From Flexilinea sp. (GTDB lineage: Bacteria > Chloroflexota > Anaerolineae > Anaerolineales > Anaerolineaceae), in assembly GCA_017432685.1 (NCBI GenBank), contig JAFRIR010000117.1:1-44234 (forward strand): 44,234 bases of DNA, given 5' to 3'. The number at the start of each line of letters is the position of its first letter. The stretch's first letter is position 1. A program made the position numbers and the translations under genes. Shown in pieces: positions 18,688-43,686 of this stretch. The notes beneath the pieces were generated by a model. The model made no database searches. It saw only the letters and a program-made list of their open reading frames with translations, and was not told the origin of the DNA.

Positions 18688-19359
18688 ATGACTTTGAAAA
18701 ACGCGCTTTACATTGTATCGATCCCTATCGGGAACCCGGATGATATCACTCTGCGGGCTATCAAGGTATTGACCGACGTAGACATTCTGGTCTGCGAAGA
18801 ATACCGCAACGGCAGCCGGCTGATGAAACAGCTGGACATCAAAGACAAACGGATCATCACCACCAACGAGCACAACGAGACACAGCAGATCGACACGCTG
18901 CTGATCGAACTGGCACAGGGGAAAAGCCTGGCGCTGGTTTCCGACTGCGGGACACCGCTCTTTTCCGACCCCGGCCACCGTCTGGTGGAGGAAGTGATCT
19001 CCGCCGGTTTTCAGATCATCCCGGTTCCGGGTGTTTCCGCGCTTTCCACCGCGATCTCCGTCACCCCGCAGAAACTGACGCGCTATGTTTTCGGAGGTTT
19101 CATGCCCCGGGCCCCGCAGGACCGCATCAATGAACTGAAAAAGCTGAAGATGATGCGTCTTCCGGTGATCCTGATGGACACTCCCTACCGCATGACAAAC
19201 CTTCTGGAAGACGTGAAGAAGGTCTTCGGCAAAGGCCAAAGGGTAACGATCTGCTGTGACCTGACCCTTCCCGGAGAAACGATCATCACCGCCAGTGTGG
19301 AAGAGGTACTGAAACGGGTCGGCGGAAAAAAGGCAGAGTTTATGCTGGTAATCATGTAG
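18688..19359 (+). CDS. rsmI: RsmI-like SAM-dependent methyltransferase (tetrapyrrole methylase fold)
   Basis: A 223-residue protein. LYIVSIPIGNPDDITLRA at 7-24 is the RsmI signature, followed by SDCGTPLFSDPG near 90-101 and PVPGVSAL near 117. RsmI 2'-O-methylates C1402 of 16S rRNA. Two differences from the usual enzyme: it is about 60 residues short, lacking the C-terminal domain, and the usual AEDTRxT segment reads CEEYRNGSRL. It may therefore be a divergent paralogue. The gene appears to be leaderless. Its TAG stop is the first three bases of a heptamer array. Confidence 0.82.
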   Translation: MTLKNALYIVSIPIGNPDDITLRAIKVLTDVDILVCEEYRNGSRLMKQLDIKDKRIITTNEHNETQQIDTLLIELAQGKSLALVSDCGTPLFSDPGHRLVEEVISAGFQIIPVPGVSALSTAISVTPQKLTRYVFGGFMPRAPQDRINELKKLKMMRLPVILMDTPYRMTNLLEDVKKVFGKGQRVTICCDLTLPGETIITASVEEVLKRVGGKKAEFMLVIM

Positions 19360-19404
19360 AAATTAGGGATCAGGTGTTAGGGTTTAGGGTATAGGGTTTA
19401 AGTA
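19357..19404. repeat. Heptanucleotide array R4, in register with the stop codon
   Basis: Units TAGAAAT, TAGGGAT, CAGGTGT, TAGGGTT, TAGGGTA, TAGGGTT, TAAGTAC. The first TAG is the rsmI stop codon. Confidence 0.8.
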
Positions 19405-19424
19405 CCAGCGTTTTTTTAACGTTG

Positions 19425-19452
19425 CCGGCAACTGGCAACTGACAACTATACA
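19425..19452. repeat. Heptanucleotide array R5
   Basis: Units CCGGCAA, CTGGCAA, CTGACAA, CTATACA. The last unit supplies the probable -35 box of the downstream ATPase gene. Confidence 0.65.
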
Positions 19453-19475
19453 CAATCGATTTTTCCTGATATAAT
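19447..19475 (+). promoter_or_regulatory. Promoter of the HerA-like gene
   Basis: TATACA, 17-bp spacer, TATAAT, with an extended TGA before the -10. The leader is about 35 bases. Confidence 0.45.
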
Positions 19476-19514
19476 TGATACGATTGATTTATAATTATTC
19501 TTCAGGAGTATTCT

Positions 19515-22022
19515 ATGGGCGAAACAGATTCGAACAAGCTTTTCCTTGGAAAACTATACAACACGAGAAACGTACTGACCGATGAAAAGATGTTTTATGA
19601 TCCGTCAGACCTGAACACCCATTGTGTCATCACGGGCATGACCGGCTCCGGGAAGACCGGGCTGGGGATTTTAATGCTTGAAGAAATTGCCCTGAAGAAA
19701 ATTCCCGCCATTATTATTGATCCTAAAGGCGACCTGACAAACCTGCTTCTCCATTTTCCAAATATGACCGGGAAAGACATTGCGCCCTGGCTGGACCAGG
19801 AAGCCCCGATCCGTGCCGGCAAAGAATTGTATGAATACGCAAACGAAAAAGCTGAAGCATGGAAAGAAGGCCAGGCTGAATGGGGGTACACTTCCGAAGA
19901 TATCGAAGCCCTTTCCGAAGTCGATTACACACTCTTCACACCGGGATCCTCCATCGGCAATCCCATCAACATCATGGCATCCTTTGCCGCCCCTGAATCC
20001 TCCATGATTTACAATGAAGAGGCGACTCGTGAGGAAATCGCAACCGCTGTAACGGCTCTGCTTGGCTTGATCGGTTACAACAATATCGATCCGCTGAAAA
20101 GCAGGGAACACATTCTGCTGTCAAACATCATTGAATCCTTCTGGACCCTCGGAAAAGATGTGACGCTCGTCGACCTCATCAACGCGGTCAACGACCCGCC
20201 GTTCGAAACACTGGGAGCCCTGTCGATCGACAAAATCTACCCGCCCAAAGAGCGCTTCAACCTGGCGCTTCAGATCAACAATTTTCTCGCATCACCCACT
20301 TTCAAAGCCTGGAATGAAGGTCCGGGACTGGACATCGGCAGCCTGATCCGAAATAAAGATAAAAAGCCCCGCTTCAATATTTTCTATATCCAGCACTTGA
20401 GTGACCAGGAGAAAATGTTCTTTGTTACCATGCTCTATTCCCAAATCGAAGCATGGATGCGCAGCCAGACCGGGACCGGCAACCTGAGACTGGCCGTTTA
20501 CTTCGATGAAATGGCAGGGTATGTTCCCCCGACCGCTAATCCCTCATCCAAACCGGTCATCATGCGCATGATGAAACAGGCACGAGCCTATGGTGTCGGG
20601 TTGATTCTTGCCACGCAGAACCCGGTTGACATCGACTACAAGGGCCTGTCCAATGCCGGAACCTGGTTTGTCGGTCGCCTGCAGACAGAACAGGACAAGA
20701 ACCGTCTGCTGGACGGTCTCACCACTACGGACGGGAACATCAACCGCGCTGATGCGGACAAACTGATCTCAGATCTGAAAAAACGAGCCTTCCTTTACAT
20801 GAATGTACATGAGAGTGGCCTGAAAGTAATGAGCACCCGCTGGACACTGAATTACCTCGCCGGTCCGCTCACCAAAAACCTGATCCCGAAATTATACAAA
20901 GAAAACTTATGTGTACCTTACACAGAAGAGGATGCAAAAGCCGCCAAACTTTACGCGGCTTATAAAAACAGAGAGGCTGATGATGATTCGGATGACAATT
21001 TGCTTACCGGCATGCCTGAAGAATTCAATGACAGCTCGAAGGAGAGTGAAAAAATGGAAGAAGAACTGAAAGAAGGACAACGTCCGAAGATCGCGGCCAC
21101 GATCAATGAATATTTCATGCCCGCTGAAAAACGTCCGGCTGAATGTGACTCTGATGGTGAACAAGTCACTTATCTTCCGGTCTGGATCGCCCAGGCTGAG
21201 ATCCGTGCAGAAAAAGACAAGATGAATTTCTCTCTTCGCACGGTCAAAGCTGCGGAAATCGATGAAGAAGATATGCGCGGCACCTCGGTCCGCTGGGATG
21301 ATTATCTCTGCGATCCCTTTGACCTCAAAGCCATGATGGGCCGCCCGGAATTTAACGACGCTTATTACCAGATGCCGCCGGAATGGATGCAGGACGCCAA
21401 GCTTGCCCGCACGTATGAAAGCGATTTTGTCAACTACCTTTATCGGGATGCCAGCATCATGGTATGGGCCAATGAAAAACTCGGCGTTTATGCGGATGAA
21501 GATGATACAGAAGATGAATTCCTCGATAAGTGCAAAGACAAGATCGAAGAAAAGAGCGCTGCGGAAATCGAAAAAATCAAGAAAACGCATGAAGCCCAGC
21601 TGGATAAACTGGAAGCTAAATTGAAGAAGCTGAACGTAACACTGGAAGACAAACAGAACCAGGTGAAGCAGCGCGGCGTACAGACCGTTGCGGCAGCCGG
21701 TGAATTGATCCTTTCCCTGATCCAGAAACGCAAGAAATCTGTTTCCAGCTCTCTGACAAAGGTCAATCAGACCTCAACCGCTAAGAAAGCCCAGGAAAAG
21801 GTAGAACTGGATATCGAAGCTGTGACTGACCAGATTCAGACAGCCATCGATGATTACGAAGCCAAGCTGGAAGAGATCCGTGACAAATGGGATAAGATCC
21901 TTGATGAGAACAAACAGGTCAAGATCTCCGTTGCCAAGAAAGACATTTTTGTCGATGCTTTCGGCATTTGCTGGATGCCCTATTACACCAACAGTTTGGG
22001 AAAACTGGTAAAAGCCTTCTAA
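19515..22022 (+). CDS. HerA/VirB4-like ATP-binding protein with C-terminal coiled coils
   Basis: An 835-residue protein. Walker A GMTGSGKT at 41-48, a hydrophobic strand with IIDPKGD at 67-73, Walker B LAVYFDEM at 326-333, and a following RMMKQARAYGVGLILATQNP segment that is typical of DNA-pumping HerA/FtsK/VirB4 ATPases. The region from about 480 is acidic. Residues about 670-720 and 765-805 are strongly predicted heptad coiled coils. CAGGAG precedes the ATG. The partner is unknown; no nuclease (NurA) or secretion genes are adjacent. It may process DNA or act as a motor in an unrecognised complex (inference). A clear terminator follows. Confidence 0.82.
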   Translation: MGETDSNKLFLGKLYNTRNVLTDEKMFYDPSDLNTHCVITGMTGSGKTGLGILMLEEIALKKIPAIIIDPKGDLTNLLLHFPNMTGKDIAPWLDQEAPIRAGKELYEYANEKAEAWKEGQAEWGYTSEDIEALSEVDYTLFTPGSSIGNPINIMASFAAPESSMIYNEEATREEIATAVTALLGLIGYNNIDPLKSREHILLSNIIESFWTLGKDVTLVDLINAVNDPPFETLGALSIDKIYPPKERFNLALQINNFLASPTFKAWNEGPGLDIGSLIRNKDKKPRFNIFYIQHLSDQEKMFFVTMLYSQIEAWMRSQTGTGNLRLAVYFDEMAGYVPPTANPSSKPVIMRMMKQARAYGVGLILATQNPVDIDYKGLSNAGTWFVGRLQTEQDKNRLLDGLTTTDGNINRADADKLISDLKKRAFLYMNVHESGLKVMSTRWTLNYLAGPLTKNLIPKLYKENLCVPYTEEDAKAAKLYAAYKNREADDDSDDNLLTGMPEEFNDSSKESEKMEEELKEGQRPKIAATINEYFMPAEKRPAECDSDGEQVTYLPVWIAQAEIRAEKDKMNFSLRTVKAAEIDEEDMRGTSVRWDDYLCDPFDLKAMMGRPEFNDAYYQMPPEWMQDAKLARTYESDFVNYLYRDASIMVWANEKLGVYADEDDTEDEFLDKCKDKIEEKSAAEIEKIKKTHEAQLDKLEAKLKKLNVTLEDKQNQVKQRGVQTVAAAGELILSLIQKRKKSVSSSLTKVNQTSTAKKAQEKVELDIEAVTDQIQTAIDDYEAKLEEIRDKWDKILDENKQVKISVAKKDIFVDAFGICWMPYYTNSLGKLVKAF

Positions 22023-22037
22023 CCTTCTATGATAACG

Positions 22038-22076
22038 AACCGGGCGCATGAACCTTCATGACGCCCGGTTTTGTTT
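22038..22076 (+). terminator. Rho-independent terminator after the HerA-like gene
   Basis: Stem AACCGGGCG/CGCCCGGTT followed by TTGTTTG. Confidence 0.85.
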
Positions 22077-22109
22077 GCCGTGATCCATCCAATCCATTCA
22101 AGACGGGAA

Positions 22110-22835
22110 ATGCACACATATCTGCCTTTTATCAACAATTCAAAACCAGAGAAAAGGAATAACGCCATCAGGCAGTTTATCCGGAAGAATAAGCTGAGCT
22201 ATTTGACGCACTTCACCCGCATTGATTATTTGAAGTCTATCCTTCAATTCGGCATTCTTCCCGCGTCTGTTCTCAAAAGCAACAAAACTTTTGATTTTGT
22301 TCGCCGCAATGACGTCACATTGCCTCCCGGATGGGACGGGCTTGTCTCGATGAACATTTCCTTCCCGGATTACAGGCTGTTTAATCAATTACAAAACCAT
22401 CAGCCCAGTGACTGGGTCATCCTGCTGATCGATCCCCGCGTGCTGACTGATTTTCCCTGCTATTTTTTCCCGGGGAGAGCTATTGAAACAATTGAGAACG
22501 CACCTGCTCCGGGTATGCCGTTAACAGATTATCAAAACGCTTCTGACCTCAAGGCGCTTTTTATGGATCGGAATGATGTAAAACGGAAAGATTTGGATAT
22601 TCCTTCATTTTATACTACAGATCCTGCCAGCGAAGTGTTGTCTTTCTTTCCTATCGCGCCATCTTATATAACCCAGGTCTGGTTCCACAGCGACTATAAA
22701 TTCAATATGTGGGTGCTCTCCAACACGGAATTCGCGGTGACACAGGACCGGAATCGCTGGGCCTGCGGCCTGCAATACTTTTCTCCCCGTTCAGATTACA
22801 CATACTGGAAGAGAGGAACAGTTAGAAGTAAATAG
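22110..22835 (+). CDS. DarT-like (DUF4433) ADP-ribosyltransferase, orphan
   Basis: A 241-residue protein. The N-terminal LTHFTRIDYLKSILQFGIL at 32-50 gives the NAD-binding His/Thr (H34, T36). SMNISFPDYRLF at 80-91 and DWVILLIDPRVL at 101-112 match the family core. The catalytic glutamate is E175 in DPASEVLSFFPI. DarT enzymes ADP-ribosylate thymidine in single-stranded DNA and are toxic unless paired with the macrodomain protein DarG. No macrodomain or other antitoxin gene is next to it. The ATG was chosen by domain fit; the Shine-Dalgarno is poor, and upstream GTG/TTG codons lie in the terminator. Its stop is inside a heptamer array. Confidence 0.75.
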   Translation: MHTYLPFINNSKPEKRNNAIRQFIRKNKLSYLTHFTRIDYLKSILQFGILPASVLKSNKTFDFVRRNDVTLPPGWDGLVSMNISFPDYRLFNQLQNHQPSDWVILLIDPRVLTDFPCYFFPGRAIETIENAPAPGMPLTDYQNASDLKALFMDRNDVKRKDLDIPSFYTTDPASEVLSFFPIAPSYITQVWFHSDYKFNMWVLSNTEFAVTQDRNRWACGLQYFSPRSDYTYWKRGTVRSK

Positions 22836-22925
22836 TAAATAGTAAGTATTAAGTAGTAAGTAAGGAGCAAGAAACCTGATACCTGACACCTGAAACCTGA
22901 TACCTGATACCCTATTCCTTATTCC
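22826..22925. repeat. Heptanucleotide array R6, overlapping the DarT-like stop codon
   Basis: Units TAGTAAA, TAGTAAG, TATTAAG, TAGTAAG, TAAGGAG, then a second block of ACCTGAT, ACCTGAC, ACCTGAA, ACCTGAT, ACCTGAT, ACCCTAT. The first TAG (22833) is the stop codon. Two unit types are joined in one array. Confidence 0.8.
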
Positions 22926-22933
22926 TGACTTTC

Positions 22934-22962
22934 TTGACTTTTCTTCCATCCTGTACTATACT
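22934..22962 (+). promoter_or_regulatory. Promoter of the thiamine operon
   Basis: TTGACT, 17-bp spacer, TATACT, ending just before the TPP aptamer. Confidence 0.75.
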
Positions 22963-22965
22963 TTT

Positions 22966-23058
22966 TGGTGCCAGGGGAGCAATTGCTGAGAGTGTAGGTT
23001 ACTACTGACCCTTATACCTGATCCGGGTAATACCGGCGTAGGAATGCAGAAACCACTA
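22966..23058 (+). ncRNA. TPP riboswitch (THI element)
   Basis: Conserved core visible in order: AGGGGAGC, GCTGAGAG, GACCCTTATACCTGATCCGG, then GTAATACCGGCGTAGGAA. It binds thiamine pyrophosphate. A terminator hairpin 28 bases downstream indicates control by transcription attenuation of the thiamine-precursor uptake genes. Confidence 0.95.
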
Positions 23059-23085
23059 AGTTTAATTATTATCAGTAAACTTGAT

Positions 23086-23113
23086 AAGGTCTCCCGCTGC
23101 GGAGGCCTTTTGC
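23086..23113 (+). terminator. Terminator of the TPP riboswitch expression platform
   Basis: Stem AAGGTCTCC/GGAGGCCTT with a six-base loop followed by TTTTGCTCTC. It would form when TPP is bound. Confidence 0.8.
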
Positions 23114-23116
23114 TCT

Positions 23117-23257
23117 CTTATAGGCACTTCTAAAAACTACCGGGCGGGGGTATGGGGGCGGCAGCCCCCGGAAACCTCCCGAGGAGATTCAGAGAACAAA
23201 TTCTCTGAATCTCCTCGGGACAGAAAATAATTTGATGTTTTTAGATGTTCCCATAAG
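23117..23257. repeat. MITE-like element, copy D, inside the thiamine operon leader
   Basis: A 141-bp element with ends CTTATAGGCACTTCTAAAAA and TTTTTAGATGTTCCCATAAG. It shares the GCGGGGGTATGGGGGC block with copy C and has a 19-pair stem with a 4-base loop at 23178-23219. It lies between the riboswitch terminator and the first gene. Confidence 0.8.
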
Positions 23258-23288
23258 ACCCGAATATATATTTGAAAGGAAATAAAAA

Positions 23289-23585
23289 ATGGAAGCAAGT
23301 GTTGCAATTCAAAGTTTGCCGTCCGTCATGGATGACGATGAACTTTGCCGCATCGTCGACGAAGTGATCGCATATATTGCGAGTACCGGTTATGAATATT
23401 TTGTCGGTCCGTTCGAAACTACCATCGAAGGGCCTTATGATGAACTGATGGACATCGTCAAGGAATGCCAGCACATCGCCATTAAAGCGGGTGCGCCAGC
23501 GGTCGCTGCCTACATCAAAGTCAGCTACAAACCCGAGGGAGAGGTCCTTTCCATTGAAAAAAAGATCGGAAAGTATCAGAAATAA
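23289..23585 (+). CDS. MTH1187/YkoF-type thiamine-binding protein
   Basis: A 98-residue ferredoxin-like protein (DUF77): VAIQSLP at 5-11, then FVGPFETTIEGPYDELMDIV at about 38-57. Members bind thiamine or its pyrimidine moiety and often sit next to ABC importers. GAAAGGA precedes the ATG. First gene after the TPP riboswitch; it overlaps the ThiX gene by about 30 bases. Confidence 0.9.
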   Translation: MEASVAIQSLPSVMDDDELCRIVDEVIAYIASTGYEYFVGPFETTIEGPYDELMDIVKECQHIAIKAGAPAVAAYIKVSYKPEGEVLSIEKKIGKYQK

Positions 23586-24324
23586 ACTGCTGCCGGTTGG
23601 GGCATTCTGCCTGATCCTGCTGTTCTGGTGGCTGATCTCGGTGACGGGGCTTGTGCCTTCCTACATGCTGCCTTCACCGGTGGATGTCGCCCGTGCGTTC
23701 ATCAAAGATTTTCCCAACCTGATCGAACACGCGGCTGTTTCGGTTCAGGAGGCAATTTACGGTCTCGGGATCGGGATCATTCTTGCCTTTCTGATCGCAA
23801 CGGCGATGGACCGTTTTGAAACACTGGAAAAGGCGCTGATGCCGCTGCTCGTTGTGACGCAAACGATCCCGACCATTGCCATTGCCCCGCTGCTGGTATT
23901 GTGGATGGGCTTCGGTATGGCGCCAAAGATCACACTGGTCGTCGTGACCACCTTTTTCCCGATCGCCGTCGGGCTGCTGGACGGGTACAAAAGCGTGGAC
24001 CCGGATGAGATCGATCTGCTGCGTTCCATGAATGCCACGAGGAGCCAGATTTTTCTGCATGTGAAAATACCGGAGGCATTGCCCTATTTCTTCTCCGGTC
24101 TGAAAGTGGCAGCTTCCTACGCGGTCGTCGGCGCGGTGATCTCGGAATGGCTGGGCGGATTTGAAGGGCTGGGCGTCTACATGACCCGGGTAAGGAAGGC
24201 TTACGCTTTCGATAAAATGTTTGCCGTGATCATCCTGATCATCATCGTCAGCCTGCTGCTGATGGCATTGGTCACCCTTCTCAGAAATCTGACAATGCCC
24301 TGGGAAAAGGTGAAAGAGAAGTAA
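23554..24324 (+). CDS. thiX: ABC transporter permease for thiamine pyrimidine precursor
   Basis: About 256 residues with six membrane helices (first at about 13-33, LPVGAFCLILLFWWLI). It has the SsuC/TauC-type EAA loop (EIDLLRSMNATRSQIFLHVK). A TTG start at 23554 is preferred because GGGAGAGG lies about 9 bases upstream and the N-terminus then matches the family length. It overlaps the end of the thiamine-binding gene. With ThiY and ThiZ it would form an importer for a formylaminopyrimidine/HMP-type precursor (inferred from the riboswitch and families). Confidence 0.88.
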   Translation: MKKRSESIRNKLLPVGAFCLILLFWWLISVTGLVPSYMLPSPVDVARAFIKDFPNLIEHAAVSVQEAIYGLGIGIILAFLIATAMDRFETLEKALMPLLVVTQTIPTIAIAPLLVLWMGFGMAPKITLVVVTTFFPIAVGLLDGYKSVDPDEIDLLRSMNATRSQIFLHVKIPEALPYFFSGLKVAASYAVVGAVISEWLGGFEGLGVYMTRVRKAYAFDKMFAVIILIIIVSLLLMALVTLLRNLTMPWEKVKEK

Positions 24325-24416
24325 CTGTTCAGAAACAAAGCACACGGAGACTGGACTGCTGCTGCCGCGAAGCCGGCACAGCAGGTCGGGATCCATGCTG
24401 CGTCTCAGAAGTTAAG
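24325..24416. repeat. REP-like element, copy 3, between thiX and thiY
   Basis: Starts right after the thiX stop codon with CTGTTCAG, then GCACACGGAGACTGGACTGC and the stem GCTGCCGCGAAGCCGGCACA. The intercistronic hairpin may shield the mRNA and raise the relative level of the upstream or downstream message. Confidence 0.75.
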
Positions 24417-24481
24417 ACGCCTTCTTATTCGTTATAAGGAGATTTTTATTTTCAGTTATCTTAATAAAAAATGAGGTATTT

Positions 24482-25474: not shown

Positions 25475-25483
25475 GGATCTTGT

Positions 25484-26227
25484 ATGGAACTGCTGCGCAC
25501 CGAACACATCACAAAATCCTATGATTCGAGGGTGATCATCCGTGATATCAACATTCACCTGAATGAAGGAGAACTTGTCTCACTGCTCGGCGTCAGCGGT
25601 TCCGGAAAGACCACACTTTTTCAGGTCATCTCCGGTTTGACTCCCCCGGATACGGGAAAGGTTTTCCTTTCGGGGGAGAATATCACCGGAGAGGCTGGAC
25701 ATATCAGCTACATGCTGCAAAAAGACCTGCTCCTGCCGCACAAAAAGGTGATCGATAACGTGTCACTGCCGCTGGTCATCCGCGGAATGAAAAAAGACCG
25801 GGCACAGCAGCAGGCAATGCCTTTTTTTGAACAATTCGGTATAGAAGGAACACAGGAAAAATATCCGTCGCAGCTTTCCGGAGGAATGCGGCAGCGGGCA
25901 GCTTTGCTGCGGACTTACCTCGGTTCCCATGGAACGGTGCTGCTGGATGAACCCTTTTCCGCGCTGGACATGCTCACAAAAGATCAGATGCACGTCTGGT
26001 ATCAGGAGATGATGGAAAAAATCAAGCTTTCCACGCTGCTGATCACCCATGATATTGATGAAGCGATCGTCCTTTCCGACCGCATTTACCTGATGACAGG
26101 GAAACCGGGCGAGATCCATGACGAACTGCATATCACCGAACCAAGATCCGAACGAAAAGATTTCAACCTTTCTCCCGAATTTTTGTCATACAAGCAGCAG
26201 ATAGTTGCCCGAATGAAGAATAATTAG
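25484..26227 (+). CDS. thiZ: ABC transporter ATP-binding protein for thiamine precursor
   Basis: A 247-residue ABC ATPase of the nitrate/sulfonate/HMP class. Walker A GVSGSGKTT at about 36-44, signature LSGGMRQRAAL, Walker B VLLDEPFSALD, and the H-loop THD. It follows thiY by 9 bases with AAGGA before the ATG. Last gene of the riboswitch-controlled operon. Its TAG stop starts a heptamer array. Confidence 0.92.
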   Translation: MELLRTEHITKSYDSRVIIRDINIHLNEGELVSLLGVSGSGKTTLFQVISGLTPPDTGKVFLSGENITGEAGHISYMLQKDLLLPHKKVIDNVSLPLVIRGMKKDRAQQQAMPFFEQFGIEGTQEKYPSQLSGGMRQRAALLRTYLGSHGTVLLDEPFSALDMLTKDQMHVWYQEMMEKIKLSTLLITHDIDEAIVLSDRIYLMTGKPGEIHDELHITEPRSERKDFNLSPEFLSYKQQIVARMKNN

Positions 26228-26249
26228 TTACCGGTTACCGGTTGCCGAA
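26225..26249. repeat. Heptanucleotide array R7, in register with the thiZ stop
   Basis: Units TAGTTAC, CGGTTAC, CGGTTGC, CGAAAAT. The first TAG is the stop codon of thiZ. Confidence 0.7.
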
Positions 26250-26303
26250 AATGCAATTGTTTTTGTTTTCGTAATCCGAACTTCTCAAATCATACTTATA
26301 AGG

Positions 26304-26442
26304 AATTTCTAATTTCTTATTTCTAATTTCTTATTTCTCATTTCTTATTTCTAATTTCTTATTTCTCATTTCTTATTTCTCATTTCTTATTTCTTATTTC
26401 TGATTTCTCATTTCTTATTTCTTCTTTCTTATTTCTTATTTT
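26304..26442. repeat. Heptanucleotide array R8, the longest, entering a coding region
   Basis: About 20 units of minus-strand TAAGAAA with TGAGAAA, TCAGAAA and GAAGAAA variants. The proximal part encodes the last residues of the GT-C-like protein. The rest lies in the convergent gap with thiZ. Confidence 0.85.
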
Positions 26443-28041
26443 TTTATACGCCGCCCCGATCTCATCCCGATCGACCGTCACCGAAAACACTTTTTCATAT
26501 CCCTCAAAACCGATATCGACTGAAGGAATATCATCGCGGCAGACGATATAATAATCCACGTCCGGCGTCTCATCGTAAGTCAGTTTCAGATACTTCCTCT
26601 GCTCCTCAGACAGCAGTCCCCGGTTGATACTGCCCGCTTGAGAATAGGCATGGTTGACTTTCAGCATTCGTTCAGGATCATTTTTAACGATGTACTCCAA
26701 CAGAGCTCGTGAACTGACGCTCCAGTAATCGCCGGAAAAATCTGATGCAGATTCCCTTGCCCACGGAACAAAATAGACATATTCAAACGGATGATTCAGT
26801 CCGATCCATATTCCGTTATAAATCATCGCACAACCCATCAGCGCATAACAAACTACTGACATGAGTCGATTTTTCCGCTGATCGATCAGGTTCAGGAACG
26901 ACACAGCAAAATAGACAAAACAGGGATAGGCAAAATAACAGTGCCGCCAGCCGTTATAGATCGTCACATGGGCAGCGATAATGAAAAAAACCGCACCAAA
27001 TCCGCTGATGAACATCATCGCATCGGTGAGATTAAACTCGCGAAAGCGTCTGTACAGCAAATCAGAAACCACGATCACGGCATATCGAAGTGTTCCCGCC
27101 AAGGAAAAAATCATGTAAACCGTCGGGACAGTGATTGCGATCCAGACAGGAATGTAGGTCAGCGTACGCGCTGCGTCAACAGGAACCCCTTTGAACAGGT
27201 TCCCTTCTGAGCCATGGTTTGGGTGATGCATGTTGAACTGCAGTGTTTCAACAAGCGTGCGGAAAGGGCTTTCCCAAAAGTTCGGCGTGATCAGGTAAAA
27301 CAGGACAATCGTTAACAACAGTGTCAATAAAAACATTTTTGTGCTTTCAGCATTATGGTTTCGCAGCACATCAAAGAGCCAGAGGAAGAGAAACACAGCC
27401 AGATAGATGATCCCGTTGAAGCGTGTGTTACAGGTCAATGCCAAGGCAAAGGCCAGTATCACAGAAGTTTTGATGTCCCGTTTCCGGAACCAGAGATCCA
27501 GCAGGTCCGCGCAAATGGCATACCATGCGACAAAAATAACATCTTTATTGTTATAAAAACTTTCGGCAAAAAATCGAGGGGAAAGGATCATCATCAGCAT
27601 CCCGGCCAGCCCATACTTACGGCTGCCGAAACGCCTGGTAAGCAGTCGGTAAATGCAGATTACCCCAAGATAATAGTTCAAAAATGTATAGAAATGCCTC
27701 AGACCGTAAAATTCAGCCGGCTCCATTGTGAAATGAACTGCGGCTTCGATGAGCACAAGCGGAAAGTGAAGAGCAGTCCCGTAATAGCGGTCCCGATATT
27801 CATGCAGTTCCGGCAGATAGCCAAGCCAGGTCTCATTTTCCCGACTGATGGGAATGTTCAGTTTGCGCACAACATATTTATAATTCACCAGCGCAGTCTG
27901 CCGTTCCATCCCTTCATCCGGACCACAGCCATAATCATCATAGAGAAACAGCCCGAGAACCGCATATATGACCAGAAGTCCTGTCACCACGTACAGGTAA
28001 AAAGGCTCTTTTGACTGCGAGAACGGATTAACTATACGCAT
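26380..28041 (-). CDS. Polytopic GT-C-like (family 39 type) membrane glycosyltransferase
   Basis: A 553-residue protein with about ten membrane helices. An acidic loop after TM1 (YDDYGCGPDEGMERQ) carries the D/E residues expected of GT-C enzymes, followed by MMILSPRFFAESFYNNKD. It probably transfers sugar from a polyprenyl-phosphate donor outside the membrane to a surface glycan. CAGGAAA precedes the ATG, 16 bases after the upstream gene. The C-terminal 20 or so residues (KKIRNKKEEIRNEKSEIRNKK region) are encoded by heptamer array R8. Deleting one A from the A7 tract at the array edge would restore a TAA in register, so the tail is probably a frameshift extension. Confidence 0.8.
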   Translation of the reverse strand: MRIVNPFSQSKEPFYLYVVTGLLVIYAVLGLFLYDDYGCGPDEGMERQTALVNYKYVVRKLNIPISRENETWLGYLPELHEYRDRYYGTALHFPLVLIEAAVHFTMEPAEFYGLRHFYTFLNYYLGVICIYRLLTRRFGSRKYGLAGMLMMILSPRFFAESFYNNKDVIFVAWYAICADLLDLWFRKRDIKTSVILAFALALTCNTRFNGIIYLAVFLFLWLFDVLRNHNAESTKMFLLTLLLTIVLFYLITPNFWESPFRTLVETLQFNMHHPNHGSEGNLFKGVPVDAARTLTYIPVWIAITVPTVYMIFSLAGTLRYAVIVVSDLLYRRFREFNLTDAMMFISGFGAVFFIIAAHVTIYNGWRHCYFAYPCFVYFAVSFLNLIDQRKNRLMSVVCYALMGCAMIYNGIWIGLNHPFEYVYFVPWARESASDFSGDYWSVSSRALLEYIVKNDPERMLKVNHAYSQAGSINRGLLSEEQRKYLKLTYDETPDVDYYIVCRDDIPSVDIGFEGYEKVFSVTVDRDEIGAAYKKIRNKKEEIRNEKSEIRNKK

Positions 28042-28057
28042 GATTCATTTCCTGTTT

Positions 28058-32766: not shown

Positions 32767-32772
32767 AGCGAT

Positions 32773-32781: not shown

Positions 32782-32846
32782 GGATTTCAAATCAAAAGTG
32801 GAACGATGCACGACGCTGAGCGGTACCGTTTTTGTTTGCATATTGA

Positions 32847-34780: not shown

Positions 34781-34797
34781 TTTGAATTTTTTCTTTT

Positions 34798-34877
34798 ACC
34801 TGTCAGCGCAACGTGGATCCCGCCTCACTGTGCCGGCCTTGCGGCAGCAGTGATCCAGTCTCCGCGTGCTCCATTTC
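34798..34877. repeat. REP-like element, copy 4 (inverted)
   Basis: On the minus strand it begins directly after the wecB stop with GGAGCACGCGGAGACTGG, then the stem CTGCCGCAAGGCCGGCACAG and GATCCACGTTGCGC. It fills the wecB-GT2 gap. Confidence 0.7.
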
Positions 34878-37174: not shown

Positions 37175-37263
37175 AGATTCTTCCTGTTTCTTAACAATTT
37201 TCACACTATTTGAGTATAACGCGTTTTTGTAAAGAAAAAGGGATTAGGTTATAAATACGATGA

Positions 37264-37301
37264 ATCAAAAAACAGGCGGCAGATGAAACATGCCGCCTGT
37301 T
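37264..37301 (-). terminator. Terminator of the ENPP-ABC transporter operon
   Basis: Eleven-pair stem AACAGGCGGCA/TGCCGCCTGTT followed on the minus strand by a T-run. Confidence 0.9.
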
Positions 37302-37323
37302 TTTGGTTTTTATTCAGACTGAA

Positions 37324-38148: not shown

Positions 38149-38162
38149 CAAAACTCCTTTTT

Positions 38163-38310
38163 TTCAGGATTCAGGATTCAGAAACCAGATGTCAGGTTTC
38201 AGAATTCAGGTTTCAATCACAAGAAATGGCTAAAAAGAACTATCTATTTCCTATTACCTATATCCTATTCCCAACACTATCCCCTATATCCTATATCCTA
38301 TCCCCTATTA
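38163..38310. repeat. Heptanucleotide arrays R9, abutting the permease stop codon
   Basis: Two blocks. 38163-38218: plus-strand TCAGGAT, TCAGGAT, TCAGAAA, CCAGATG, TCAGGTT, TCAGAAT, TCAGGTT. 38243-38307: minus-strand TAGGGGA, TAGGATA, TAGGATA, TAGGGGA, TAGTGTT and more. The second block starts directly at the TAA stop of the permease gene. Together they fill the gap between two cotranscribed permease genes. Confidence 0.8.
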
Positions 38311-39219
38311 ATACTTCCACTTCTTCTGGATCAGCTGCTGGATCTGGGTGAAGACAAAGATGATCAGGAACAGGATGATCGCAGCAGCAGCAGCATAACC
38401 GTATTTCGGTGGAGTGCGTCCGCGGAACTGGTCATAGATATAATAAACCATGGTATACAGGTTCTTCCCGACCCCCGGCCCGGAGAACAGAGGGAACAGC
38501 TCATTGAACACTTTGAATGCACTGATGGAGTTGATGATCAGCACCAGGAAAATGGTCGGTGAAAGCAGCGGAACGGTGATGCGGAAAAAGATCCGCAGGT
38601 CCTTTGCCCCATCCACACGGGCTGCCGTATAAAACATCGGGTCGATGTTCTGTAAACCGGAAAGCAGCAGAATGATCGTAAACGGCATCATCGACCATAT
38701 CCCGTATATCGCCAAAGCCCAGAAATTCGCCGAAGGGTCCTGCAGCCAATTCACGGGTTCAACATGGAATAAGCCGAGCAACCAGTTTATGACACCGAAC
38801 TTGTAATTGAACATATATTTCCAGGTCAGCCCGACCGCCGTGACGGAGGTCACCATCGGCAGAAAATATGCCGTCTGGAAAAAAGCACGCAGCTTAATGT
38901 TCTTGTTCAACAGTGTAGCAATGACAATGGAAAGACACATAGAAACCGGAATTGCGACCAACACATATTTAAATGTGACACCAATCGCGTTCTTGAAATC
39001 CCGGCTGTTGAGCACGTAAATATAGTTATCAAAACCGAAACCGTCATATGCACCGGTCAGATATTTATAATTTTTCTTGAAAGACATGATCAGCACGTTC
39101 ACGATCGGGTACAACGAAAAAACGATCACCCCGACAGCAAACGGCGCCAGATACAGAAGGGGCTTTATTTTCTTCAGGAAAAGATAAAGCCCACGGTTTT
39201 TTTCCTTGAGCCTGTTCAT
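38308..39219 (-). CDS. Carbohydrate-type ABC transporter permease (MalF/UgpA-like)
   Basis: A 303-residue protein with six membrane helices and EAA loop FYTAARVDGAKDLRIFFRIT. The start overlaps the ATPase stop (ATGA). Partner of the MalG-like permease. The substrate is not determined by sequence. Confidence 0.93.
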   Translation of the reverse strand: MNRLKEKNRGLYLFLKKIKPLLYLAPFAVGVIVFSLYPIVNVLIMSFKKNYKYLTGAYDGFGFDNYIYVLNSRDFKNAIGVTFKYVLVAIPVSMCLSIVIATLLNKNIKLRAFFQTAYFLPMVTSVTAVGLTWKYMFNYKFGVINWLLGLFHVEPVNWLQDPSANFWALAIYGIWSMMPFTIILLLSGLQNIDPMFYTAARVDGAKDLRIFFRITVPLLSPTIFLVLIINSISAFKVFNELFPLFSGPGVGKNLYTMVYYIYDQFRGRTPPKYGYAAAAAIILFLIIFVFTQIQQLIQKKWKY

Positions 39220-40274
39220 CTGATACGTTCTCCTGTTTCAGCATCAAATACAAAGACGCCTTTGCGGCGCAGGCCGATCTGCACCCGGTCACCGGCTTTC
39301 AATTCCTGGTCAGAATCGATATAGGCACGAACTTCGAAATCACCGAGTTTGAGATAAACCAGCTTTTCCTTGCCCATCACAAAGACACGGATCACCCGCG
39401 CATCCATTACCGGGTCAGAACTGTTCACAAGGAAACTTTCGGCACGGATGGAGAAATGCACCTTATGGCCCTCTTTGATGTTTTCAAGGCCGGAGAGTTT
39501 ACAGAGCGGACCGCTTTCAATGCGGATACCGCCATTTTCGATGTGTCCAAACACCTTGTTGATCGGAGGAGTACCGAGGAAATCTGCCACGAATTCATTG
39601 GCCGGTTCATCATAAAGCTCCTGTGGCTGCGCTTCCTGCTGCAGAACACCCAGCTTCATCAGGATGATCGAGTCGGAAATGGACATTGCCTCTTCCTGGT
39701 CATGGGTGACAAACACGCTGGTCACTCCGGTTTCCAGCTGAATACGGCGGATTTCCTCACGCATCTCGATGCGGAGTCTTGCATCCAGATTGGAAAGCGG
39801 CTCATCAAGGAGCAGAAGCTGCGGCTGTTTGATCAGAGCACGGGCAATCGCTACTCGCTGCTGCTGACCACCGGAAAGCTGCCCGGGTTTGCGGTCAAGG
39901 AAGTTATCCACATGGACCAGTTTTGCCATTTCAAACGCTTTTTCTCTTCGCTCGTCTTTGGCAACATTTTTGATTTCCAACGGGAAGGCGATATTGTCCA
40001 TCACGGACATATGCGGATAAAGCGCGTAATTCTGGAACACCAGACCAATGCCGCGGTCAGCCGGTTCCATATCCGTCACATCACGGTTGTCGAACCATAT
40101 CTTACCGCTGGTCACCGGAATAATCCCTGAAAGCATGTTCAGAATCGTGCTTTTTCCGCACCCGGAAGGGCCAAGCAGACAGGTCAGTTCTCCGGAATCC
40201 AGCACCGCGTTGAAATTTTCTACCGCCGCTGTCTTGCCAAAGTGTTTGGTGAGATTTTCAAGTCTAACTTCCAT
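39216..40274 (-). CDS. ABC transporter ATP-binding protein (UgpC/MsmK/MalK-like)
   Basis: A 352-residue protein. Walker A LLGPSGCGKST near 33-43, signature LSGGQQQRVAIA, Walker B LLLLDEPLSNLD, H-loop VTHDQEEA, then a TOBE-type C-terminal domain from about 240. The ATG at 40274 gives the family-typical N-terminus (MEVRLENLTKHFG). It lies 25 bases after the phosphodiesterase gene, in the same operon. Confidence 0.94.
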   Translation of the reverse strand: MEVRLENLTKHFGKTAAVENFNAVLDSGELTCLLGPSGCGKSTILNMLSGIIPVTSGKIWFDNRDVTDMEPADRGIGLVFQNYALYPHMSVMDNIAFPLEIKNVAKDERREKAFEMAKLVHVDNFLDRKPGQLSGGQQQRVAIARALIKQPQLLLLDEPLSNLDARLRIEMREEIRRIQLETGVTSVFVTHDQEEAMSISDSIILMKLGVLQQEAQPQELYDEPANEFVADFLGTPPINKVFGHIENGGIRIESGPLCKLSGLENIKEGHKVHFSIRAESFLVNSSDPVMDARVIRVFVMGKEKLVYLKLGDFEVRAYIDSDQELKAGDRVQIGLRRKGVFVFDAETGERIR

Positions 40275-40299
40275 AGATACACAACACCTTTCTTCCCCG

Positions 40300-41607
40300 T
40301 CAATCCGCGAGGATCTCTTCAATTACATGGCCTTCACATTTGTCCATGTTCAACCCAACCATAGCTGCCATTGTCGGCGCTTCATTGATCATCTTTGTCC
40401 GTGGAATTACTACACCTTTCTTGATTGAAGGTCCGCATGCAAAGAAGGTTGTTGTCTCGTCCCGTTCCGGCATATGTCCGTGACTGGCCAGTGAGAAATA
40501 CAGTCCCGGTCCCAGATGCACTTTGAAGATATCTTCTCCGGCCAGAGTCGCTTCAAACTCCGTTGGTTCTTCTTCTGTTCCTTCAATAACAAAGTCCAGC
40601 GGACCGACCAGCCCATAGCGATCCAACACCTCATCTTTGGTCATCACCACGCCAATGGGAAATTCCGGGTCATCCCGCAGTCTCAGCAGGTATTCATAGA
40701 CCTTCTTCGCCATCTCTTTGTCATCGGGATTTTTCAGTTTCACCCAGCCGGACATACAGGTGGAGAAACAATAGGCATCATAACCAATTATTTTGTTGTT
40801 TTCATCTGTACGGATAAAGCCCGCATCACGCAGCGCCATGTTCATGTTGACATAGTGCTTGATGTCCTGGTGCCCATGATCACCAAGAATGATAAAGTTT
40901 GTGTTCTCATAATCTCCATAACGGCGGACTGCTTCCTCCAGCACGGCGAATTCCTGATCATGTTTCCGCAGCTGTTCATAGGCTTCCGGGCACTTCACCC
41001 CGTGATTGTGACGTTTGGTATCCAGGTCGCACATCTTGACATACATCAGATCCGGCTGACCGAAATCGCGGATGATGTCCGGCGCCAGTGCCATTGTGAA
41101 GAGATCCAGGCTGCGTTCTTTCCCCATCAGGAAACGCCCGTATTTCCAGTAATATTCATCGATCAGGATCTGCGTCGCATTTCCTTCCAGATAAGGCATC
41201 ACATCATAGCCTTCGTAATGATAGGGAACGATCATCGGAAAATTGTAATCAATGTCCGCACCGCCTGAGACCGGCCAGCTCAGTGAACAGGTTTTCAGCC
41301 CGGCACGCCGTGCATAATCAAAAATCGTGTCACATTTAACATCGCTGCGCTGGTTGTACCAGGGAGCGTTGTTGTTTTCTACTTCCAGCTTTTCATTATG
41401 GGGAATGCCATGTCCCTTCACGGTATTCCCGGTGATAATTGCGCAATGGCAGGGATAGGTGAAAGATGGGTAGATCGGTTCCACATGCTCGATCAACGCA
41501 CCTTCCCGCAGCACACGTCCCATGTGAGGCAACGTTCTGATGAACTCAACATCAGACGCACACAAAGCATCCAGTAAAAAAACAAGCAGTTTTCTGTTTC
41601 CGGTCAT
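40300..41607 (-). CDS. Alkaline phosphatase superfamily phosphodiesterase (ENPP-type)
   Basis: A 435-residue enzyme without a signal peptide, so it acts in the cytoplasm. Metal and catalytic residues: D13 in FLLDALC, nucleophile T50 in YPSFTYPCHCAIITGN, D196/H200 in CDLDTKRHNHG, D243-H244 in LGDHGHQD, and H376 in SHGHMPERD. The family hydrolyses phosphodiesters or pyrophosphates. First gene of the operon with the importer, so it likely processes the imported compound, for example a glycerophosphodiester (inference). GAGAG precedes the ATG. Confidence 0.88.
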   Translation of the reverse strand: MTGNRKLLVFLLDALCASDVEFIRTLPHMGRVLREGALIEHVEPIYPSFTYPCHCAIITGNTVKGHGIPHNEKLEVENNNAPWYNQRSDVKCDTIFDYARRAGLKTCSLSWPVSGGADIDYNFPMIVPYHYEGYDVMPYLEGNATQILIDEYYWKYGRFLMGKERSLDLFTMALAPDIIRDFGQPDLMYVKMCDLDTKRHNHGVKCPEAYEQLRKHDQEFAVLEEAVRRYGDYENTNFIILGDHGHQDIKHYVNMNMALRDAGFIRTDENNKIIGYDAYCFSTCMSGWVKLKNPDDKEMAKKVYEYLLRLRDDPEFPIGVVMTKDEVLDRYGLVGPLDFVIEGTEEEPTEFEATLAGEDIFKVHLGPGLYFSLASHGHMPERDETTTFFACGPSIKKGVVIPRTKMINEAPTMAAMVGLNMDKCEGHVIEEILAD

Positions 41608-41640
41608 ATACGAATCTCTCTTTGTATAAGATTTTTGTTA

Positions 41641-41649
41641 ATTATAGCA
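41641..41649 (-). promoter_or_regulatory. Extended -10 promoter of the phosphodiesterase operon
   Basis: TGCTATAAT on the minus strand, about 33 bases before the ATG. No clear -35, as expected for the extended class. Confidence 0.5.
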
Positions 41650-41735
41650 GATTTGTGAAAAGCTGGAGGTTGAATTTCCCGGGATTTTCCCCTTTTCAAG
41701 GAAAAATGAGTTATGATTAATAACAGGATAGAAAA

Positions 41736-41751
41736 AGGGCTGATCAGCCCT
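41736..41751. promoter_or_regulatory. Perfect 16-bp palindrome in the leader of the solute-binding protein gene
   Basis: AGGGCTGATCAGCCCT, 22 bases before the ATG. It could be an operator controlling this gene, or an mRNA hairpin. Confidence 0.45.
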
Positions 41752-41773
41752 CCAATACAAGAGGAGAAACTAT

Positions 41774-43009
41774 ATGAAGAAGAACCTGTTTGTTTTTGTT
41801 TTGACAGCCATCATGGTCTTTTCCATGGTCGGTGCAGCCGCCGCTGCTGACAAAGTCACCGTCACCTGGTGGCACACCTTCACCGAAGGTCAGAAAGACA
41901 CCCTTGAAAGCATCATCGCTGAATTCAACGCAGCCCATGATGACATCGAAGTTGTTGCTGAATCTCAGCCGTTGGATGGTTTCGAAGCCAAGGTTTACGA
42001 AGCTGTTTCCAATGGCACCGGGCCGGACATCATCTTCAACTATGCATCCCTGATGCCTGAATATGTTGACAATGGCCTCGCTCCGGATATGAACCAGTAT
42101 CTGACCACCGATTACAAAGGCCGCGTTCCCGCCGGTGTTTATGATGAAGATACCGCTTTCTCCGATAACGGTCTGCATGCCATGGCTGTCCAGACCACCG
42201 GCCCGATTTTCTTCTATAACAAGACCATCTTCGATGAACTTGGACTCGAATGCCCGAAGACCTGGGACGATGTGACCGAAGCTTCCAAGAAGATCTACGA
42301 AGCCAAAGGTATTCCTGGATTTGCTTTCGACTCCCTCACCGACGGTTTCCAGACCCTGCTGATGCAGAGCGGCGGAGAATATGTTGACATTGAAAACAAG
42401 ACTGTTCTCTTCAACACTCCCGAATTCGAAGCCATTGTCCAATGGTTCGCAGACGGTGTTCAGGCCGGTTATTTCGGACTGGCACCGACCACCGGGAACT
42501 ACTTCTCCAATGATATGGGCGCCAAAGCTCTGGCTTCCTATGTCGGTTCTTCCGCCGGCCTGCCTTATCTGAACCTGGGTGACGATGAACTGGCCGCTGC
42601 CCCGATGCCGAAGACCGTTGACGGTGTCGACTGGGTCCCTGGATGGAACCGCTCCGCTCTGGTTTTCGCATCCAATCCTGCTCAGGAAAAGGCTGCTGTT
42701 GAATTCATCGAATTCTTCACCAATGCTGAAAACGCTGCGAAATGGGCGATTTCCCTGGTCGCATTCACTCCTTACAAAGACGCTGCTGAACTGCCGGAAT
42801 TCCAGGAATTCGTTTCCGGTAATATCGCGCTGGCCGCTCTCCGCGAACAGCTGGATTACGCTTATGTTCTGCCGGCCTTCACCGGTGCGAACACCGTTCG
42901 CAATGAAATTAAATTCCTTGTCCAGAAAGCTGCTACCGGCCAGATGAGCGCTGCCGATGCCATTGCAGAAGCCGTCGCCAACTGCGAAGAAGCGATGAAC
43001 GATTTCTAA
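41774..43009 (+). CDS. ABC transporter substrate-binding protein, family 1 (UgpB-like)
   Basis: A 411-residue secreted protein. Signal peptide at about 1-25 ending AAAA, then the family start VTVTWWHTFTEGQKDTLESI at about 28-47, and GPDIIF, TWDDV and PTTGNYFSND motifs. No lipobox. Codon use is strongly biased to a small set (GAA, GGT/GGC, CTG, ATC, AAC, TTC), like the tuf end, so it is probably very highly expressed. Divergent from the permease/ATPase operon it belongs with. AGAGGAGA precedes the ATG. Its TAA stop begins a heptamer array. Confidence 0.93.
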   Translation: MKKNLFVFVLTAIMVFSMVGAAAAADKVTVTWWHTFTEGQKDTLESIIAEFNAAHDDIEVVAESQPLDGFEAKVYEAVSNGTGPDIIFNYASLMPEYVDNGLAPDMNQYLTTDYKGRVPAGVYDEDTAFSDNGLHAMAVQTTGPIFFYNKTIFDELGLECPKTWDDVTEASKKIYEAKGIPGFAFDSLTDGFQTLLMQSGGEYVDIENKTVLFNTPEFEAIVQWFADGVQAGYFGLAPTTGNYFSNDMGAKALASYVGSSAGLPYLNLGDDELAAAPMPKTVDGVDWVPGWNRSALVFASNPAQEKAAVEFIEFFTNAENAAKWAISLVAFTPYKDAAELPEFQEFVSGNIALAALREQLDYAYVLPAFTGANTVRNEIKFLVQKAATGQMSAADAIAEAVANCEEAMNDF

Positions 43010-43041
43010 CGACAAGTGGTCAGTGGTTAGTGGTCAGTTTT
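43007..43041. repeat. Heptanucleotide array R10, in register with the stop codon
   Basis: Units TAACGAC, AAGTGGT, CAGTGGT, TAGTGGT, CAGTTTT. The first three bases are the stop of the solute-binding protein gene. Confidence 0.75.
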
Positions 43042-43083
43042 TCCCTCTCCACTGATTTATAACTACGTAAATAATTGATTACA

Positions 43084-43120
43084 AAATACACCGAATTCTT
43101 TTTTCGGTGTATTTTTGTTT
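43084..43120 (+). terminator. Rho-independent terminator after the solute-binding protein gene
   Basis: Stem AAATACACCGAA/TTCGGTGTATTT with a T-rich loop, followed by a T-rich tail. Confidence 0.85.
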
Positions 43121-43184
43121 TGTCCCTGTCAAGAATCAAATGAAATATGCTAAAATCTAATCAGAAAATAACAGGAGTAAATCT

Positions 43185-43661
43185 ATGTTCAGAAATGTTA
43201 CACGAATCAAACAGATTCTTCCCGATAAAGAATGTATCAGCATCCTGAAAAATCAGCTGCGCGGGGTGCTTTCCGTTTTAGGAGATGATGGTTACCCTTA
43301 CGGTATGCCGCTGAACCATTATTATAACGAAGAAGATGGGAAGTTATATTTCCACAGCGGAAAATCCGGGCACAAGGTCGACGCATTGATGGCCGAACCA
43401 AAAGCCTCCTTTTGTGTCATGGATGAAGGAAGCCATGAAAACGGGAACTGGTACCTGACATTCCGCTCCGTGATCCTTTTTGGAAAGATCGAGATGATTG
43501 AAGATCGGGAAAAGATCTATGAAATCGCCCGCAAACTCAGCCACAAATTCACCGCCAATGAAGCCTACATCGAACATGAAATCGAAAACTCCGGTCCCGG
43601 TACACTCATGTTCGCCCTCGTCCCGGAACATATGACGGGAAAACGAGTTACGGAAAGGTAG
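43185..43661 (+). CDS. Pyridoxamine 5'-phosphate oxidase-fold flavin-binding protein (NimA-like)
   Basis: A 158-residue split-barrel protein: GVLSVLGDDGYPYGMPLNHYY at about 28-48 (flavin and substrate wall), then LYFHSGKSGHKVDAL near 54-68, as in NimA and related FMN-binding reductases. The physiological substrate is unknown. ACAGGAG precedes the ATG. Its TAG stop is the first unit of a heptamer array; a bidirectional terminator follows. Confidence 0.9.
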   Translation: MFRNVTRIKQILPDKECISILKNQLRGVLSVLGDDGYPYGMPLNHYYNEEDGKLYFHSGKSGHKVDALMAEPKASFCVMDEGSHENGNWYLTFRSVILFGKIEMIEDREKIYEIARKLSHKFTANEAYIEHEIENSGPGTLMFALVPEHMTGKRVTER

Positions 43662-43686
43662 GGTATAGGGTATAGGGTATAGGAAA
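43659..43686. repeat. Heptanucleotide array R11, in register with the stop codon
   Basis: Units TAGGGTA x3 and TAGGAAA. The first TAG is the stop codon of the NimA-like gene. This is the cleanest example in the window. Confidence 0.85.

Follow-up and report, generated by a model that had tools for sequence, protein, structure and literature searches.

Why does the DNA behind so many genes of one bacterial genome consist of degenerate seven-base units, and why do these units so often start on the stop codon of the gene? The question was raised by tandem arrays of period 7 in a 44,234-bp stretch of Flexilinea sp. (assembly GCA_017432685.1, contig JAFRIR010000117.1), hereafter the window, which is contig C90 of the 3.97-Mb, 151-contig assembly G000. 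The reading that we favor, with moderate confidence, is that the arrays are lineage-specific heptamers of the short tandemly repeated repetitive (STRR) type, in which slippage fills the DNA from the stop codon to the next functional element and the stop codon is often recruited as a unit.

The G000 sample comprised 690,105 bp, namely the window and the first 20 kb or less of contigs C1-C40 (41 stretches), and the placement, register and strand tests pooled G000 with the relatives G006, G009, G010 and G011, whose stretches were chosen near matches to a solute-binding protein and are non-random. Genes were called with a home-made scorer of open reading frames (ORFs) and dicodons, in which starts are approximate and stops are exact for true ORFs. 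Judged from its serC relatives, the organism is probably a rumen or gut member of the Anaerolineaceae: L009, L010 and L011 (serC protein 94-95% identity) are metagenome-assembled genomes titled uncultured Chloroflexi or Anaerolineaceae bacterium, one of them from goat abomasum, and the next serC protein relatives are Leptolinea and Flexilinea.

Period, units and stop-codon register of the arrays

Twelve period-7 arrays of at least 15 bits were detected in the window against a mean of 0.48 and a maximum of 2 in 50 segment-wise dinucleotide shuffles, which bears out the claim of a first-pass annotation that at least eleven intergenic arrays have an exact 7-bp period; Tandem Repeats Finder gave period-7 rows at the same places. 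The scan for period 7 that the same annotation had proposed was extended to the 690-kb sample and gave 112 arrays at 20 bits, whereas 12 other periods (4-6, 8-13 and 15-17) gave 0-14 arrays each, with period 12 the highest, and periods 14 and 21, as harmonics of 7, gave 48 and 25 in the first half of the sample. Of these 112 arrays, dispersed through a sample of 41 stretches, 102 were mostly intergenic. An assembly artefact is an unlikely source, because genomes elsewhere in the genus and class have similar arrays, as does a named Microcystis plasmid.

Fitting 259 pieces of 21 bp by expectation-maximization gave one skeleton, approximately CTRAYNY / T-N-A-G-R-N-R, with a log-likelihood of 838 versus 383±7 in 10 column-permuted sets. 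The skeleton was fitted well enough for counting by 226 pieces, which held 168 distinct units among 452, the commonest being AAATAAG (39), and the A (0.89) and G (0.96) were nearly invariant and least variable within pieces while the other columns varied, a result that the skeleton alignment itself favors. Therefore, most of the different units listed in the first-pass annotation are variants of one degenerate heptamer, with CGGTTAC after thiZ as a poor fit. Along 41 arrays, matching fell from 0.755 at lag 7 (inflated, as arrays were selected on this lag) to 0.685 at lag 14 and 0.542 at lag 42, with about 0.25 off register, and such decay is the mark of local duplication.

The arrays lie at gene boundaries. 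Among 145 intergenic arrays of at least 16 bits, 88 were nearest to a 3' end, at a median edge distance of 0.5 bp, and 57 to a 5' end, at a median of 19 bp from the start codon, and the T-N-A-G skeleton was also present at these 5' ends, in mirror orientation, where no stop codon exists. For 128 arrays of at least 18 bits near 3' ends, the left edge was before the stop in 34, at 0-2 nt in 19, at 3-9 nt in 17, at 10-29 nt in 11, between +18 and +43 in none, and at +44 or beyond in 47, mostly right arms. In regions with a single array, 25 of 49 arrays began no more than 5 nt from the stop, compared with 2.4 by random placement (maximum 10 in 2000 placements), so that the proposed enrichment at stop codons is real. 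Arrays were present in 14/81 convergent, 72/339 tandem and 9/96 divergent regions, and 32 of the 61 tandem regions with an end-proximal array had it at the 3' side only.

For the register test, arrays were detected in post-stop DNA only, and 81 of 604 gene ends with enough downstream DNA had an array beginning within 14 nt after the stop. The stop codon matched the array at 1.59 of 3 bases at shift 0 and at 0.76-1.01 at the other six shifts, and the register score of 129.2 (77.9±6.8 by permutation) was reached in 0 of 20,000 permutations. TAG, TAA or TGA stood at +7, +14, +21, +28 and +35 in 35, 25, 29, 25 and 19% of 80 array ends, versus mostly 3-12% and at most 16% off register, and such peaks were absent from 470 array-free ends. 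An array running into the ORF could supply the stop codon and yield a trivial register, which contributes at the 22 of 81 ends where the coding end matches the array; this is insufficient, since the register persisted at ends whose final 7 coding bases are unlike the array (n = 48, z 4.2, p 5e-5), as it did where 3-14 nt separate the stop from the array (n = 31, p 9e-4). The TAG stop was used by 38/81 array genes versus 104/766 other genes (p 1.7e-11). Under a phase rule that was framed after seeing the window, and after 9 of the 81 ends had been dropped for a weak skeleton score, 30 of 72 ends were in the predicted phase (10.3 expected), with TAG in the N phase at 19/35, TGA in the T phase at 5/9 and TAA in the T phase at 6/28. 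The phase preference suggested by the first-pass annotation is therefore above chance, and the anchoring is partial.

In 113 of 144 arrays, irrespective of gene direction, the G-rich strand was the plus strand if the array lay on the left side of its intergenic region and the minus strand if it lay on the right (left side 59/12, right side 19/54; Fisher p 2.7e-12). By gene end, the rule was followed by 74/88 arrays at 3' ends and 39/56 at 5' ends, the G-rich T-N-A-G strand reading away from the gene at both. In 48 intergenic regions with a convergent pair, which were chosen for orientation, arm complementarity was 631 versus 453±35 for partners shuffled within the genome; many single pairs have non-complementary arms, including all four in the window (such as 19357/19427 and 22820/22871). 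RNAs of tandem regions folded more stably with arrays (median z -3.06, n = 52) than without (-1.98, n = 70; p 0.019), and 49% of the array-free regions had z below -2.

The first-pass annotation had suggested that local gene ends seed the arrays, or that some process recognizes stop-proximal DNA or RNA. Arrays do begin at stops and in register; nevertheless, independent gene-specific units seeded by gene ends do not provide a full account, given the shared skeleton, the mirror arrays at 5' ends and the few TAA stops in phase.

Arrays of the window, gene by gene

According to the first-pass annotation, the stop codon forms the first three bases of a unit at five genes of the window. This is exact at two of them. 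The RsmI gene (TIGR00096, 167.2 bits, cut-off 167.9) ends with TAG at 19357-19359, on which the first unit of the plus-strand array TAG-NNNN (19357..19400) begins exactly; the opposing arm GGCAACT is at 19427..19447 on the minus strand, and L009 and L010 have no array at this end and an RsmI protein that ends at the same residue. Likewise, the array TAGGGTA (43659..43683, plus) begins exactly with the NimA-like stop TAG (43659-43661), and in G010 the interval after the NimA-like gene holds three arrays totalling 280 bp ahead of the same terminator-like hairpin. At the DarT-like gene, the TAG stop (22833-22835) is in register, but the left arm TAGTAAR (22820..22870, plus), which includes it, begins 13 bp inside the ORF. 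The short array CGGTTAC (26225..26247, detected at 26227-26247, plus) is in phase with the TAG stop of the ABC ATPase gene named thiZ, but only the G matches, and the solute-binding protein stop TAA (43007-43009) is in phase with the following CAGTGGT (43015..43038, plus), but its own unit TAACGAC matches poorly.

Two further claims stood. The minus-strand array CACTRAY (17347..17378, detected at 17347-17376) reads TGAGTGATCAGTGG.. on the serC sense strand and includes the serC stop TGA (17376-17378), and the one-base offset noted there reads T-G-A-G, a T-N-A-G unit with N = G. The array on the minus strand at 38244..38308, TAGGATA on the MalF sense strand, begins on the base after the stop TAA, as had been said. 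The names thiZ, MalF and MalG were given by the first-pass annotation or by position, family scans there giving only ABC ATPase and BPD_transp_1 domains.

Of the remaining arrays, GATTCAG (8519..8546, plus) is intergenic and outside the range covered by the first-pass annotation; ATTTCTT (18645..18694, minus) lies just upstream of rsmI, between the divergent serC and rsmI, and has no counterpart at the aligned place in L009; and TTCAGGN (38163..38215, plus) lies upstream of the minus-strand MalG-like permease gene, beginning 14 bp from its start. The 141-bp array ATTTCTN (26304..26444, minus strand, NAGAAAT on that strand), at a locus absent from the earlier list, includes the stop TGA (26380-26382) of a PMT_2-domain gene (26380-28041, minus), and the last ~21 residues of this gene, KKIRNKKEEIRNEKSEIRNKK, are therefore array-encoded.

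The right DarT arm ACCTGAN (22871..22926, minus) forms one 7-bp-periodic block with the left arm, the border having been placed by eye inside the array 22820-22926. It ends just ahead of a promoter-like TTGACT-17-TATACT (22934-22962; 1 found and 0.9 expected, alone no better than chance), which is followed by a thiamine pyrophosphate (TPP) riboswitch (22963-23061). The riboswitch precedes an apparent thiamine-type transport operon with Thiamine_BP, an NMT1-like binding protein and an ABC ATPase by Pfam, as found in the genes scanned on either side of a permease. Upstream, at 19515-22835, the DarT-like ADP-ribosyltransferase gene (PF14487, 23.8 bits, cut-off 22.5) directly follows a HerA-like ATPase gene.

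Relatives and the possible origin of the arrays

Array density was 162 per Mb in G000, 210 in G006, 43 in G009, 61 in G010 and 70 in G011 (21, 4, 5 and 7 arrays counted in the four relatives), and 200 kb each of G001 and G002 gave none. Density thus ranges from zero detected in the two species sampled without arrays up to about 200 per Mb in others, and because array-rich and array-free members occur in one genus, the cause can be sought by comparing close relatives.

Reciprocal-best relatives of 35 sampled G000 genes gave 57 comparisons to G006, G009, G010 and G011, with an array in both in 7, in G000 only in 9, in the relative only in 2 and in neither in 39. A gene end with an array in one species tends to have one in the sister species too (Fisher p 0.001, the comparisons being non-independent since genes were counted repeatedly). 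The protein ends agreed within 0-1 residue in 18/18 array comparisons, which means that the arrays did not simply overrun these genes. Two further array comparisons were made with the array-free G002, in which the solute-binding protein ends agreed within one residue and the MalF ends (71% identity) differed, with 4 and 9 residues unaligned. MalF ends with ..KKWKY in G000, G006, G009, G010 and G011, and its stop is accompanied by different units in the first four and by no array in G011. Another gene (L098:14726) ends with TAA and no array in G000, and with TAG and an array in G006 and G011. Array lengths also differ between species, as seen in one genome per species.

Beyond these relatives, a query with two unit types matched 4/61 genomes of the family and 19/100 of the class, in scattered families (both counts include G000), and G110, G077, G132 and G089 were sampled because the class search matched them. 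G110, from another family, had 60 period-7 arrays in 200 kb and followed both the register (n = 25, p 6e-4) and the strand rule (25/6 versus 8/13, p 0.003), and G077 showed the register with n = 6 (p 0.027). The position weight matrix score versus column-permuted scores was 0.07/0.26 in G089, 0.28/0.25 in G077, 0.35/0.27 in G110 and 0.25/0.28 in G132, so that T-N-A-G as a class-wide rule was rejected, the skeleton being weak in G110 and not seen in the other three. G110 (L207-L216) also had 16 period-8 arrays in 200 kb, compared with 0 at period 8 in the G000 sample.

Loss of mutS1 or sbcD was considered as the cause in 20 genomes, of which the 10 comparison genomes were called array-free by one DNA query or a sample only. 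Loss of mutS1 was rejected, with matches in 20/20. Loss of sbcD was not consistent, with matches in 19/20 that were over the cut-off in 8/10 array-bearing and 10/10 comparison genomes; only the array-bearing G122 (none) and G110 (partial) were below it, and the rejection does not extend to these two.

In the slippage reading, seven-base duplications by strand slippage would expand the arrays until the unconstrained DNA is filled up to a ribosome-binding site, promoter, riboswitch or terminator, and where the gene ends the stop codon would be accepted and in many cases become unit 1. The stop may have come into register, with the protein end unchanged, in either of two ways: by duplication of a stretch holding the stop, or by deletion through short homology between the TAG of the stop and one in the array. 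The probable source of the opposing arms would be one arm copied by fold-back, or else selection in favor of a hairpin. Slippage and boundary filling would account for the period, the placement, the decay and the species differences, and the register would follow from the deletion or duplication at TAG.

Several observations weigh against this reading. Neutral slippage does not predict the strand rule, the complementary arms or the shared skeleton, and the reading does not cover a T-N-A-G strand that reads away from the gene at both gene ends; most likely, the strand rule and the skeleton need a further factor, either a hairpin or a transcription-linked constraint. That arrays recur at given gene ends would be expected equally from function or from a hotspot. 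TAA stops are mostly out of phase, the array ends of MalF and the solute-binding protein use TAA, TGA or TAG and thus oppose a simple TAA-to-TAG switch, the array-free RsmI of L010 already ends with TAG, and for gene L101:315 the array-free G009 copy ends with TAG and the array-bearing G000 copy with TAA. The register was not clear in G089 (n = 2, p 0.10) and G132 (n = 6, p 0.19), and no cause of the array burst was found between mutS1 and sbcD in the 20 genomes.

It is possible, though not probable, that each pair of arms forms an RNA hairpin with a function at the gene boundary (terminator, 3' protector, or ribosome staller like the repetitive extragenic palindromic (REP) elements near stops) and that selection acts on the architecture and not on the unit. 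Arm complementarity in the convergent pairs, the more stable folding with arrays and the distribution over convergent, tandem and divergent regions agree with this, as do the reports that quadruplex-capable repeats of Xanthomonas coincide with transcript starts or ends more frequently than control repeats do (PMC4692102) and that REPs within 15 nt of the stop stall E. coli ribosomes (PMC12306157), but many pairs are non-complementary, many ends have one arm only, and the folding difference is modest, with 49% of the array-free regions below a z of -2 as well. We consider it rather unlikely that a lineage-specific process builds inverted heptads at gene boundaries with the stop as unit 1, renewing the units while it keeps the T-N-A-G skeleton, orientation and place; if true, gene boundaries would be marked by an element whose identity lies in its period, orientation and skeleton and not in its sequence, and which reappears in unrelated phyla. 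That the arrays are sites for an RNA- or DNA-binding protein reading the AG every 7 bases is an improbable candidate idea, to which the nearly invariant A and G and the binding role proposed for TAACTGA repeats (PMC4679880) lend support, and with which it is at odds that the skeleton is not clearly shared by the other families of the class that have arrays.

A role as translational insulators is quite improbable. Since 7 is not a multiple of 3, repeats of a stop-bearing unit give stops in all three frames after the gene, as was noted for TAACTGA (PMC4679880), and all three frames were stopped within 30 nt at 36/81 array ends versus 28/764 others. Each T-N-A-G variant has a stop on at least one strand, and N = C, which leaves the T-N-A-G strand stopless, was rarer at 3' ends (52/191) than at 5' ends (51/119), units within an array being non-independent. 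However, permutation of the seven columns gave the same all-frame fraction (0.41 versus 0.42), so that the base order is not tuned for stops, and arrays also occur upstream of start codons in mirror orientation. That the arrays are inserted or spread by some mobile or enzymatic system, for instance a REP-associated tyrosine transposase (RAYT, Y1) at gene ends, is very improbable. Y1_Tnp matches were present in 10/10 array-bearing and 7/10 comparison genomes, and within the genus in 5/5 array-bearing members and 0/3 others, and the extragenic placement resembles that of REPs; yet at the 12 of 19 Y1_Tnp loci with a called gene (7 gave none), no period-7 array was listed within 160 bases beside the gene, inspection of the flanks by eye showed mainly palindromes of other kinds (for example GGGACTGTCCC), and a given stop carries different units in sister species. 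A RAYT mobilizer, which should be flanked by copies of its element, is thus not supported at these 12 loci.

Comparison with known heptamer and extragenic repeats

REP elements and the related bacterial interspersed mosaic elements (BIMEs) are extragenic palindromes in an inverted arrangement. The present arrays are similar in being extragenic, inverted and in part near stop codons (PMC12306157). A REP or BIME has a palindromic consensus, unlike these tandem heptamers. G000 has separate REP-like dispersed sequences, for example in the window at 23130-23230, with 19 copies of GCGGGGGTATGGGGGCGGCA and 17 copies of TCCCGAGGAGATTCAGAGAA in 690 kb.

Heptamer repeats have so far been reported piecemeal in several phyla, with no agreed cause or function. 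The STRR sequences of filamentous cyanobacteria have 7-bp units and hairpin potential (PMC2670836), and the arrays described here share the exactly 7-bp tandem units and the dispersed, mostly intergenic location. Such arrays, which the first-pass annotation knew from filamentous cyanobacteria, are not confined to them (PMC4692102, PMC4679880). Our own cyanobacterial comparison was one Microcystis plasmid (H32), in which, of the 18 annotated stops examined, one lies inside a TCAGTTA-type array and another is abutted by one. Some plasmid searches for heptamers gave no match, perfect repeats probably being masked, and others matched 5, 26 and 3 records, of which only H32 was examined.

TAACTGA direct repeats have a patchy distribution in Beggiatoaceae, Cyanobacteria and Bacteroidetes, sometimes overlap the stop codons of upstream genes, and in a Beggiatoaceae genome are mostly found just upstream of start codons in 2-6 copies (MacGregor 2015, PMC4679880). 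They resemble the present arrays in the 7-bp unit, in the reverse complement TCAGTTA, which like the Microcystis plasmid arrays fits T-N-A-G, and in the CTNA strand towards start codons, and they differ in having one fixed unit (PMC4679880), compared with the many distinct units here.

The closest likeness is to the GGGAATC / GGGGA(C/T)T repeats of Xanthomonas and Nostoc PCC 7120 (Rehm et al. 2015, PMC4692102), which are intergenic 7-bp units with fixed and variable positions, lie mostly on the coding strand less than 50 bp from the stop, or on the non-coding strand ahead of a start, overlap stop codons and vary in length between related species. The G-rich strand after stops and before starts follows the same rule as that found here, and convergent inverted pairs are present in Xanthomonas, as here, and few in Nostoc (PMC4692102). 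These organisms have one G-rich unit each, mainly treated as quadruplex-forming (PMC4692102), whereas many units around T-N-A-G occur here. The four GGG tracts of GGGNATC-type repeats are not found in our commonest units (AAATAAG, TGGTCAG, GTGTCAG and ACATTAG), which lack GGG, although some loci such as TAGGGTA have it, and a quadruplex was therefore rejected as the general basis of the arrays.

Among the matches listed by a literature search, with most subscription journals outside its reach, there was no report of such arrays in Chloroflexota and no stop-register analysis. The words register, in-frame and TAG are absent from the main text of PMC4692102, and register, TAG enrichment and unit replacement at fixed stops were found neither in that search nor in the available text of PMC4692102 and PMC4679880. 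The measured stop register, the TAG enrichment and the different units at the same stop in sister species go beyond the account of the Xanthomonas and Nostoc repeats (PMC4692102). Period 7, stop register, TAG enrichment, strand orientation and a shared skeleton are measurable rules, and any genome rich in heptamers offers a test of the one on stop codons. The arrays of Flexilinea are a known class of bacterial repeat in a new group, with rules not previously described.

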